Assembly: GCF_963675165.1 (NCBI RefSeq)
Contig: NC_087381.1
Coordinates: 1,116,001 to 1,180,000 of the forward strand
DNA: 64,000 nucleotides
Origin: Halichondria panicea
Lineage: Eukaryota > Porifera > Demospongiae > Suberitida > Halichondriidae
Reading direction: 5' to 3'
The stretch's first letter is position 1; the number at the start of each line of letters is the position of its first letter. The notes beneath the pieces were generated by a model, which saw nothing but the letters and a program-made list of their open reading frames with translations, was not told the DNA's origin and did no database searches. Position numbers and translations under genes: made by a program. Shown here one piece after another: positions 1,057 through 37,400 of this stretch.

Positions 1057-1577
1057 ACAATACAACTAAGATATAAATATAACAGAGAAACGTAGTATAC
1101 GTATATGAATGTGTTCATAAACTTTTTTCTGCACATTATTAGTCATTATTAGCTTAATTTGTCTGTTAGTAATACAGTCATGCACTGTGTGGTTTCATTT
1201 TCAATCAAGATTATTACAGCCAATCTTTCCCTCCTCACGGTACATTGCGACCTCAGGCTTAATTTGTTTACTGCTATAAATACCTATATATAATAGTCTC
1301 AGGAGTGCAAGAATCCTGATAATCTATGTATCGATCTCATCCTCCACACTGTCCAATTGTGTATATCATTATTGAGGATATAATTTATATTGTATATCAT
1401 TATACAGGTATAGTTGAATAACAGAAGCTGTGTAGTTGTGATAGCAATTCCCCTGTGCATCCATACACACAATTACTACTTGTTTACATAGAAATAGAAA
1501 GCGATAATGTCAAAATAATAAAGTTTAGAGTATAGCTAGCTAGATCATTAATTTTACACTTATTCAAAGAGAAAAAG
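1057..1577. repeat. Array spacer with a PH-gene exon 4 remnant
   Basis: This gene-free spacer follows the pattern of most array spacers. A stretch like the end of intron 3 of the PH/RUN gene (pyrimidine run 'ctttccctcctca', 'gccctcagg' and a 'tcatcctccacactgtccaat' block) leads into a remnant of exon 4 near 1406 ('ggtatagttgaataacagaagctgtg'). The real exon reads 'gtggtggagataacagaggctgtg'. The sequence then runs AT-rich into the start of the next transporter copy. No open reading frame is supported. Confidence 0.6.
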
Positions 1578-3084
1578 ATGAAGTATACAAGCTGCGATAT
1601 TTCTACTCAAAGGGAGCTTTTCTAGTTCTTGTGTGGTTAATGCTTATTACATCAGCAATGAATTTCTTATTTCGTATGCTCAATAATTCATGGAAAATCA
1701 AAACCTATCATTTCTACAATGATCAAACACTTCTTCTCATACCGATGATTGCCTTCATTCCTATATCAGGCTAGCTAGCTGATGTACGGTATGGAAACTT
1801 TAAGGTGTTTAGGTTTGGTGCAGTACTATTATTTGTCTCAGCGGTATTGACCTGCATTTGTTTGATAATTCAAATGGAGGGAATTCATCCAACTGTGGCT
1901 ATGGTTGCTACAACTGCAGCTGTGTTAGTAACATACCTTGGAATTAGTGCATGCGCAGTAACAGCTCTTCAGCTAGGCTTGGATCAGATGCCAGATGCTT
2001 CGTCTGACAACATTATAAGTTTTATTGAATGGCTCATTTTCTCAGCTCTTTTTGGTGTATGGATTAGTGACATTATCCTAAACAGACAATATCTTGTGCT
2101 TTCGTAGATCCTAATAATGATTTCATTTTCTTTAGTCTATACGCAGTATTTGCTATGAGCATTCTGTGCTGTAGTATTTTTTTTTTAGCCCCAAAATGGC
2201 TAATAATTGAACCAAAATCACCCCAGTCCCTCAAAATCATCTACCAAGTTCTCAAGTTTGCAGTCAAGCACAAAGCTCCCCTCAATCGCAGTGCTCTCAC
2301 ATACTGGGAGGAAGACATACCTTCAAGAATGGACCTTGGAAAGTCCAGATACGGTGGTCCATTCACTACAGAGCAAGTTGAAGATGTGAAAACGTTCTTT
2401 AAGATTATTGTTATCCAAATACCACTCTTTTTTGTCTCATTATCATCTAGGAAATTACATGAACATCTTAATTCCCAACCATTATTTCCTATCAACAAAT
2501 GCACTGCTTCACTTATTAGTCTCACATATCACCCGTGTGTCTGTGCAATGTTAGTAACGCTTATCTCAGAATTTATAGTCTATCCTCTAGTTAAAATGGA
2601 ACCACCAAGTATCCTTAAACAGATTGGATTTGCTTGCTTCATCATTGTGATAGCAAATATAGGGATATTGAGTGCAGAAGTTGTGAGCTATTATCGTGAT
2701 ATTCAAAATTGGATCGAAATAGCTAGTTCAATAATTGGCGGTCTTGTTAACTTGTCCTTTTTGACAAACAGTATTCTGTTGTTTGCTTGTGCACAATCTC
2801 CATATAACATGCGTGGTCTATTGGCGGGATTTGTATTATTACTTCATATCTCATCATTAGTCCTTGGTGAACTTTTATTTAGTATCACGATCAAGCTTTG
2901 TGACAAGTGCTACAACTATATAATATATTCGTCAGTCATGGTAGCGATTACTTTGTTTGGATTCATCCTGTACTGCCTCCTGGCTCGCTGGTACAAAAGG
3001 AGAGTTAGAGACGAGGAATACAATGCACACAGAGTGGTGGAGGAGGTCTATGATCGATACCTTTCCAACGACATGTATCACTGA
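1578..3084 (+). pseudogene. POT/PTR-like transporter copy 2, broken
   Basis: This is a full-length relative of the intact copies with several lesions. Two extra bases after the third codon ('atgaagtataca' against 'atgaagtaca') shift the frame at the start. A TGG to TAG change at 1772-1774 hits the conserved GWLAD motif. A one-base loss near 2083 separates the open stretch 1805-2107 from the open stretch 2155-3084. The 309-residue C-terminal half (2155-3084) is fully open and well conserved, so inactivation may be recent. Synthesis of a half transporter from the internal ATG at 2155 cannot be excluded, but no promoter is evident there. Confidence 0.75.
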
Positions 3085-34400: not shown

Positions 34401-37400
34401 CTGCTGGCAGAGACGCCCGAGGATATGAGATACTGGGTGCATGGCCTGAGGTGTGTGGGTATAGTAGTGTGGAGTGGGTGGGCGTACACAGACTAAGGTG
34501 TGGATGTGTGGGGTGGGATGGGATGGGAGCTAACTTTGAGGACTCGTAACTTAACTTGGGGGATGCAATCTGAATACTTTCTATAGTGCATGGTGTTACC
34601 AATGCTAATTTGTTGGTGTGTAAATTTATAATTTTAATGTATATATAGTGTTTGCTTGCGACTGAAATAGCCTGCCCTGTTTTTCAGTAGGTGTGTTATC
34701 ATTCACTAGCTGTGTGTCCTTAAATCAGCATTAAGTTTTATTAGTAATTAATCATCTCATAATTTGTTTGTTTGTATATTTCACCAAAGTTTGGTAACTT
34801 TTGTCGATGACTTTGTTGACAGGTATATCAAGGCGTATTGGTCCAAGATGATGGTGCGTGATACTGTTCTCAGCGAGGAGCAAGAGCGGAAACTTTTGGA
34901 CAGGATTCTCAATGAAGAGGACTATGAACGGGGAGATGTGAGTGTGTGCGTGTGTGTGTGTGTGTGAGATTGTGGGAAGTGTGTGTGGGTGTGTGTGCTT
35001 AGTGATAGTATAGAGTGCACGAGTGACGGTATGAGAATAGCTATTATAAGTCGCTCATTCCCTATAATTATATATACACACACTCTCTCATGCAGGAGGT
35101 GTACGGTGACTACACCATCGGGGAGGGCGGGCAGTCAGACGAAACAACAAGGTATAATTATGATCCGTAATGACTAATTGGTCTTGGTGTTGCGCAAGTA
35201 TTAATAATTATCTAAATTTATCTCCTCATTTTTTGACTCGATTATAATGACTGTTTTTCTTTCTCTCTCCAGTCGACAAGTTGCCGTTCATTTCGCTAAT
35301 GGGTCAAAGGTCAAAGTGACGCTGTCAACGACTGAGACAACCTCTGACCTCTTGGAGATGAGTGAGATAAAGGAGCAGCTGTCCTCCTCGTCTGCTTATA
35401 TAGTGCGAGTGGATGAAGTTGGAAAAGGTCAGCATAGTCTTGTTATACGTAGAATGGTGTAGGATATGCTTATGACTTTAGTTATAACATTTTATTTTAT
35501 TCTATTTTACATGTAGTGATGTTCCCATACTGCTCGGTAGTTAGTACCATCCACCACCTCTTAGGCCCATAATAGGCTATAAAACTTGTGTGTTTTTGAG
35601 ATTGAGGAGTATATAAATGCCACTGCTTCGAAATTTCGGGGCACATCACTAAGTTTAGTATAATTATAGTTATAGAATCAGTTCTAAAAGTTCCTAGAGG
35701 GGTGCTCTAGCCTCTGGAGCTTCTGTGGTTCTTACGCTATGTACACATCCTTAATATGATTATAGTGAATGTAGGTTACGTTCCCTCCCCCCCTGCAGAT
35801 GTTATCCTGGAGACGCAGGATCACCCCGCCCTGTACCACTCGAAGAGCTCCACCCTCTACGCAGTGGAACACTCACACAGGGTATTATGCTTGTTAAAGT
35901 AGTACAGCTGAATAACAGCTATAGGCAGTTAAAATGGTTTCTTTCTATAAGCTTGCAGAAATCATAAAAAATTGATATTTCTATATTATAACGTAATCTA
36001 GACACCTAGCTGTGACCAACGGGATTATGCTATAAGTTGTAATAGACACATGCAGTTTTACCTTAATTCACCCCCCCCCACACACACCCACATCCCCCCC
36101 ACAGCTTTTGGTGGTCTACATTGACAACCAGAAGGACTTTGAGTGCATCTACGTGAGCCCCCACGCCACGGACACGGAGATCATTCAGCACAGAGAGATT
36201 TCCGTGAAACTAGACATGACAGGCGTAGGAAATCGAGGTCTGTTCCTGAAGCTGAGAGATAGTGAGCAGCCGTTTGGTCTAGGAGAGTCGCCCTGTGACG
36301 TGCTGTTTGAGATGAATATCAATGGAGAACTTAGGAGGCTGCCCGTGGGTGAGTGGCAAGATCATGCATGGGTTGAAGCAGAGGGAGCTATGGAGACTTT
36401 ATGCCCATTAGCCTGGCTGTATAATTATGGAGGGTATCAAAGGACCTGGGTATTAACTATGAGTATATATACCTGCATATAATTATTGGTGAGTGGCAAG
36501 GATATGATTGTAGTGTGTCTATTTATACCTTAAATTTTCTGTCCAAATGCAACAATAAAGTGATGTATGTTTCTTGCATCATTATAGTGGGACAGTTATA
36601 ACTTGAATTCTGGTCCACCGTTTACAGGCCACCTGGTAGTGAAGAACAAAGCGTTGGGAGGGGGGCGCTCCACCTCTAGAATCACAAGACGCTGGATTAA
36701 CCGCTCCACTACACACAGGCCCGTTAGGTCTGTCTCAGACGAGGGAAAGAAGTTAGAGGAGATATCGGAGGTGGTGCTGCTTACATGACTGTAAACGCGC
36801 CACATAAAAATATTTTCGCTGGTATACATGTAGGTGGTTGTATTCAGAGATGGAAAATTAGTTTTGAGGCTGGATGGTGTGTCTTTAGAGGGCCGCCTTC
36901 TAATTGGAGATAAAAAAACAGCTTTTCCAACCTCTAATACGACTACCTTTACCAGCGTAAATAGTTTTATGTGGCATCTTAAATAGAGCTTATACGGTAG
37001 ACTGTGATGTGCCTATAGAATCATATTTTCAATCTCAATTTAAATTACCTCTTTAACATAATTATAGTACGTAACTATAGGCCTATAATTAGGTGGTTAT
37101 ATTTCTAGTATACTAGTACGTACTGCAGTTAATGTAATATTATGTTGTGAAATTGTAAGAGATGGAATTCTAGGTGTAAACATTTTTAACTGCATGTCGA
37201 TTACGAGCGTAAGAACTACACACCTTCACACTTCACACACATCTCATACACACGCCCACACAGGAGGAGGATGCTCAGGCAATGGCATTGGACAATTTCT
37301 TCAATCGAATGGGTGGGGCTAGGGTGGAGCTTGATAGTACCACTGAGTTGGAAATTGATGGAATGGTCTATGTGTTACCACCTGACTTCAACAAAGGTGA

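Follow-up and report, generated by a model that had tools for sequence, protein, structure and literature searches.

A transporter array with exon scraps of a PH/RUN gene in the sponge Halichondria panicea, and its probable origin from one intron of that gene

Arrays of duplicated genes that carry broken pieces of a neighbouring gene are of a kind already known, the closest described systems being the human RCCX module and the int22h repeats. In RCCX (STK19-C4-CYP21-TNX), which commonly has one to three segments, the truncated genes TNXA and STK19B are found, at least in the part of the published account consulted (PMC8362596). F8A is a single-exon gene in intron 22 of factor VIII that belongs to int22h-1, int22h-2 and int22h-3, and its three copies are kept alike by conversion, according to the sections of PMC7725122 consulted. 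Here we describe an array of intronless transporter genes, SLC15A3/A4-like by similarity, that adjoins a gene predicted to have both PH and RUN domains in the sponge Halichondria panicea; the window is the stretch of 64,000 nucleotides at C5:1,116,001-1,180,000 (C5 being contig NC_087381.1) of a 131-Mb genome. The PH/RUN gene, called the host below, holds two transporter copies in its intron 3, and it is probable that a transporter nested there was amplified together with its host flanks as a fused unit, the direction from host to array being well supported.

Like RCCX, as far as its account was consulted, the sponge array has truncated pieces of the flanking gene between its copies, with unequal crossing over following; the truncated RCCX gene does not, however, harbour the amplified one in an intron, and that array is in place, whereas the sponge transporter is nested and its array lies upstream. 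As with F8A, a nested single-exon gene has been duplicated within a larger repeat to sites outside its host, but the F8A copies are at distances of ~495 and 571 kb and antisense to their host, and host exons are not mentioned in the consulted sections of PMC7725122, whereas the sponge copies, 37 of them full length on the plus strand, share the strand of the host and come with exon scraps. Duplication through circular DNA changes a block order of A-B/C-D to B-A/D-C, and here too the order is flipped and the segment ends are fused within the derivative; the published cases, in the text of PMC7450558 that was consulted, concern segments >20 kb whose breakpoints show no more than microhomology or short indels, in contrast to the ~5.5-kb segment, long array and ~130-bp bridge of the sponge. 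The AFPIII array of an Antarctic eelpout arose when part of a sialic acid synthase gene was duplicated and is likewise a tandem array bearing donor-gene parts, although in the account consulted (PMC3449122) the array gene derives from donor exons, while in the sponge array the exons are passengers. A comparison with opsin/TEX28 was dropped, the text consulted describing no truncated copies. What sets the present case apart is that the gene is nested, that the array is large and that the block order is flipped, and no published counterpart combining nested gene, tandem array and exon fragments was found in a literature search that misses most subscription journals.

For the analysis C5:940,001-1,116,000 was joined to the window, giving 240 kb, and negative numbers are window coordinates left of base 1. 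Compared with itself, the window shows a run of transporter copies that begins at base 1 and reaches ~25,165, and a further pair at 30,441-33,930. A search of the contig found transporter matches leftward of the window to about C5:975,000, and with the profile map the array comes to ~167 kb, its left end standing at about -141268 (C5:974,732) and its right end occupying 1..25601 (+) of the window; it thus reaches 141 kb further left than the window in which the earlier note had described it. Both edges are inter-transporter spacer, the left one abutting a repeat at -142705..-141234 that has inverted internal matches. Reversed copies of this edge repeat are also seen within the array, ending at -109924 and -21132. 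Two stretches of 7,956 bp (-111056..-103101 and -102900..-94945) flank a 200-N gap with 100% identity and are likely to be an assembly duplicate; the right-hand one is excluded from the final counts.

The host gene looks to have been left whole beside the array. Its exons 2-5 have GT/AG borders and a joint frame of 153 codons, and the description of exons 3 to 5 as intact at 29560-34937 holds, in one frame with exon 2. Exon 2 (28653..28745, +), where the PH domain starts, is single copy within the 240 kb; it is followed by exon 3 at 29560-29646, exon 4 at 34287-34450 and exon 5 at 34823-34937. The PH domain is matched at E 1.8e-12, with a 210-aa query of hand-joined exons in which exon 5 began earlier and was slightly longer, and a RUN domain at E 2.8e-6 on hand-joined exons downstream, whose joining to the PH exons is predicted. 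An exon 1 is proposed at 28445..28489 (+), predicted from sequence as MAQSMDDIQPDLVRP followed by GT and compatible in phase with exon 2. In a genome protein search exon 2 and the complete exon 5 are each found at one place only. Profile searches of the 240 kb agree: exon 2, intron 2 from 28800 to 29339 (+), just beyond the amplified segment, and 34,861-35,450 each give one plus-strand match, the host itself, and the block of exons 5-6 has one extra match, on the minus strand at a CA repeat (41278-41433). With host 36500-44000 as query no match was found inside the array. A long CA/TG repeat at 41372-41552 stands directly before the RUN-domain exon.

Two blocks of the host recur in the array. 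Block A (29353..29962, +) consists of the end of intron 2, exon 3 and the start of intron 3, and block C (34243..34846, +) of the end of intron 3, exon 4, intron 4 and 24 bp of exon 5. Profiles of both (29,340-29,965 and 34,220-34,860) were built by iterated search from the host blocks, with E-values that are flattered by the included copies. The block C profile has 30 matches, none on the minus strand; that of block A has 32 on the plus strand and 7 on the minus, and these 7 overlap plus-strand copies of its inner palindromic part. Once the host and the gap duplicate are set aside, C has 28 further segments in 22 places and A has 29 in 23 places. In the self-comparison of the window the spacers match 34,365-34,775, 34,529-34,746 and 34,631-34,747 separately. 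All nine exon-4 copies that include the exon start keep the AG acceptor and the GT donor, with 81-94% identity to the host exon over aligned columns; seven have a common 9-bp deletion, and at least one frameshift is seen in seven and none in two (copies beginning inside the exon were aligned too and are less informative). Given these frameshifts and the deletion, most exon-4 copies are relics, short stretches of some of them still being open. Across the genome a protein search places exon 4 on C5 only, in the array, in the host and on the minus strand at 2.84 and 2.86 Mb (25 candidates, every one of them scored), and a DNA search is concordant among the best 40 of 83 candidates, its other matches lying in the GT-rich end of the query.

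Chance similarity of the spacers to host exons is ruled out by shuffles and by the flanks. The earlier note had listed six decayed exon copies and these are borne out, five of them with host sequence alone as query: the copy at 8385 falls within 8157-8403 (E 7.7e-32), those at 10746 and 11190 within 10744-11218 (E 3e-69), that at 11640 within 11640-11702 (E 1.9e-7) and that at 13494 within 13437-13627 (E 3e-23). The sixth, at 13805, scores 37 against the start of exon 3, where the maximum of 300 shuffles is 25, and lies within a profile match at 13736-14279. The short piece of exon 5 at 8402-8419 lacks significance by itself (21 against a shuffle maximum of 25) and counts only as the end of its block. 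The short exon-4 starts that had been noted before nine transporter copies all exceed 500 dinucleotide shuffles, the one at 16294 narrowly (28 against 26), as do all 14 spacers tested. Neither of the negative controls, the host sequence before its first transporter (T1) and the right edge of the array, beat the shuffles. Furthermore, when the 240-kb region was shuffled 10 times, four spacer blocks gave no match at E<=1e-4, and together with the transporter they gave none at E<=1e-3 in the two flanks.

The ends of the blocks are recurrent. Eleven of the 28 C segments, in 11 of the 22 places, end at the same point of exon 5 (34846..34847, +), and in 12 of 23 places the start of block A is profile position 1 (about 29,352); alignments made with the host only and free to extend leftward begin at 29,343-29,358. 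An exact junction string, GGTCCAA (or GGTCAAA) and then TTAGACA, occurs 7 times. Block C is followed by block A within 700 bp in 15 pairs, of which 6 have a bridge of 131-141 bp between them, and successive joins carry the same truncated host fragment with a common breakpoint, as do those of RCCX. At 8155..8687 (+) such a fused unit has the end of C, a bridge of 132 bp (8420-8551) and the start of A, and at 10740..11805 (+) another runs from exon 4, intron 4 and the exon-5 start through a 141-bp bridge to intron 2 and exon 3, with a transporter next, at 11792. All 21 matches of the bridge in a genome search lie within the array, and the idea that it is a repeat dispersed through the genome is therefore unsupported. 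Its middle (positions about 40-115) resembles the post-transporter spacer of some units; as a source, decayed exon 5 or intron 2 gave nothing convincing on alignment. A second class of join leads from 34,485 to about 29,491-29,518 through 88-91 bp. It is found three times, one example, with 90 bp and A from about host 29491, being at 13440..14279 (+), and a fourth C also ends at 34,485 with a shorter gap. In a third class, between transporters, the end of intron 3 and ~30 bp of exon 4 are followed by pre-transporter sequence, and a scrap of the kind, an exon-4 start with the end of intron 3, stands in the spacer between the two host transporters (32249..32281, +; score 46 against a shuffle maximum of 25).

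The direction proposed in the earlier note, from host to array, stands up well: the breakpoints are common, the bridge is one, the copies of A and C are all on the plus strand and the host sequence directly beyond the breakpoints is single copy. The array has nothing from outside about 29,343-34,846 and the host has everything in one frame, so the scraps cannot have made the host. Host and array agree in having the transporter between exon 3 and exon 4. The note had further taken the array for a duplicated intron, and this holds in so far as the transporter was amplified with intron and exon flanks; the unit itself, however, runs from intron 2 into exon 5, with a smaller unit besides. The array does adjoin the host gene as it had said, yet it is outside the gene: exon 2 is natively joined to exon 3 at the right, the array ends at ~25,601, upstream of exon 2, and it is not flanked by two native ends of the donor gene. 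Duplication in place would put exon 2 at the left end of the array and is therefore, in its simple form, insufficient. That the array might lie within host intron 1 is disfavoured by the predicted exon 1 at 28445, to the right of the array.

We would picture the history as follows. An intronless SLC15A3/A4-like gene would have come into intron 3 of the PH/RUN gene, presumably before the amplification. A stretch that begins in the last part of intron 2 (about 29343-29352) and stops 24 bp into exon 5 (34846) was fused end to end through the ~130-bp bridge, as the recurrent junction shows. The resulting unit consists of exon 4, intron 4, the start of exon 5, the bridge, the end of intron 2, exon 3 and a transporter; it multiplied upstream of the host, and a smaller unit with a 3' breakpoint ~30 bp into exon 4 multiplied alongside, as the anatomy of the array shows. 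The segment may have been circularised, or copied by replication, and inserted upstream, after which unequal crossing over would have enlarged the array. In the array the internal order is C-A, against A, transporter, C in the host, and the donor ends are fused inside the derivative. A plain head-to-tail array gives the same C-A join, so what speaks for a circle or a copied insertion is the location of the array beyond the host; insertion by either route is favoured, since the two native borders of the host are preserved and the copies, in flipped order, are found elsewhere. For a circle-like route alone we would put the chance a little short of even.

There are 72 transporter segments on the plus strand, or 70 after removal of the gap duplicate, and 18 of the 37 full-length ones have an open frame of at least 495 codons. 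Whole open reading frames of about 500 codons are what marks the gene as intronless. A phmmer search matched SLC15A4 at E 4.7e-10 over query residues 122-374 of 511, and SLC15A3 was matched too; no SLC15 or PTR2 model of Pfam was found even at E<=10 and no relevant family of NCBIfam at 0.1. Examples of open copies are 8926..10438 (+, 502 aa), 16478..17985 (+, 500 aa) and one that crosses the window edge (-455 to 1059, +, by the open-frame test). Among pairs of open copies the median ratio of nonsynonymous to synonymous divergence (dN/dS) is 0.34, with a range of 0.24-0.51 (148 of 153 pairs, dS>0.03), indicating that they have been under constraint; about half of the full-length plus-strand copies stay open while the exon scraps decay. 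Four more full-length transporters, outside the open-frame count, are on the minus strand at -121088..-119583, -85767..-84257, -50279..-48771 and -34489..-32972. Each stands just before a plus-strand block C, and the four would appear to be an inverted sub-unit that was itself multiplied. Intronless SLC15-like relatives, with 45-55% identity and mostly single open frames, are also found at C10:1.40-1.51 Mb, C15:517-529 kb and C3:4.41 Mb.

The two transporters that the earlier note saw still sitting in intron 3 are both present, and both are broken: T1 (30441..31942, +) is a pseudogene with 8 in-frame stops and a longest open frame of 164 aa, and T2 (32419..33930, +) has one in-frame stop near the C terminus, leaving 470 aa against about 502. 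In a tree rooted with the C3 and C15 copies T2 groups with the transporters T1575 and T21571 at 100/100, that is, among the array copies, and T1 is in a basal polytomy. Identity to the array was taken over ungapped columns of local alignments, for segments spanning no less than 60% of the profile. The highest value is 97.9% for the spacer after T1 against array spacers (median 87.7%, 38 segments), 92.4% for T1 (median 90.0%), 94.7% for T2 (median 90.2%), 86.7% for host block A (median 84.0%, 11 segments) and 90.5% for host block C (median 87.6%, 16 segments). From the best matches and the tree, the medians alone being insufficient, we infer a recent exchange between array and host intron, through which an array-type transporter, T2, may have been put into that intron. 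In a tree of 40 transporters (31 rows labelled, 9 left out) the upstream neighbour, either the exon-3 block or a post-transporter spacer, changes 5 times, against a shuffled mean of 10.6 with 1 shuffle in 300 as low; the neighbour thus follows the tree, and the lineages of the two positional classes are to some extent separate.

Several observations weigh against amplification of a single fused unit as the whole account. The bridge is itself one of them, being ~130 bp and not mere microhomology or short indels, and for the sequence outside its middle no source was found; elsewhere it is interrupted or shortened, and at the C5 locus at 2.86 Mb, which reads transporter, C, A, there is none between C and A. 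There are at least two classes of exon-to-exon junction besides truncated bridges, and to these are added the four full-length transporters on the minus strand and four places where A precedes C without a transporter between them. We take these last for later deletions; one such relic in the window, at 4812..5438 (+), has the end of intron 2 and then the end of exon 4, intron 4 and the start of exon 5. From the junction classes, the A-before-C places and the minus-strand transporters it follows that the history was not a single event. Neither T2, nested in the array, nor T1, in its basal polytomy, is identified as the founder, and the tree of block C has some weak branches. The left edge meets a repeat and so does not reveal where a circle would have opened. 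Finally, the basis is a single genome in which a one-copy ancestral state is not seen, and the pattern could also have been produced by a second host gene, since decayed, or by rearrangement at a later time.

That rearrangement is best considered with tandem duplication in place by unequal crossing over, in the style of RCCX, after which exons 1-2 would have been moved to the right end. The head-to-tail units, their common junction and the large later duplications within the array are in keeping with it, but it predicts an array with exon 2 on one side and the remainder of exon 5 on the other, whereas the array is upstream and exon 2 with intron 2 adjoins the rightmost exon 3, and it requires one extra rearrangement; we regard it as unlikely. 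It would also seem improbable that a second whole host gene once stood upstream, had its inner segment amplified and lost its ends. Such a gene would account for an array upstream of the whole host, yet exon 2, the rest of exon 5 and exon 6 leave no trace in the 240 kb outside the host, the CA-repeat match aside, and the lack of any array match to host 36500-44000 is contrary to it, although decay or deletion could hide the missing exons.

Transporter copies with spacer blocks occur also at C5 2.47-2.51 Mb, at C5 2.86 Mb and on C15, as might be expected had the units spread by transposition as a mobile element with captured host exons; most of the copies found nevertheless form a single array of direct orientation, with junctions that fall within the host gene, which makes this very improbable. 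An artefact of assembly is scarcely credible, since what points to one, the 200-N gap between identical stretches, is confined to one 8-kb stretch and the other long duplicates listed differ by about 1% or more. Amplification of the nested transporter with its flanks is thus the reading that we retain, and its interest is that the exon scraps make a built-in ruler: the host exons supply reading frame, ancestral order and breakpoints, and so allow the expansion of a gene family to be traced to one intron. There are other large SLC15-like clusters in the genome (C10, C15); here the starting event is legible and the host is left whole.

Later duplicates within the array include one of 10.9 kb, with 98.3% identity between copies 57 kb apart; the places -118,638 and -83,313 share a duplicate of 96%, and -66,749 and -9,578 one of 98%. 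A dispersed element of ~0.7 kb with terminal-repeat-like ends lies at about 15095-15815, and among the best 40 of 1,253 candidates it is found at 90-95% identity on 16 contigs. This element, contained in 14,516-16,250, recurs between matching flanks in two other array units, and an element at one site in three units is expected of copying unit by unit. Separate from the array, a direct repeat pair with 82% identity is present at 48615-49179 and 49923-50435, and a tandem repeat region at 54096-54830, with many internal matches of 82-91%, is related to 55947-56068.

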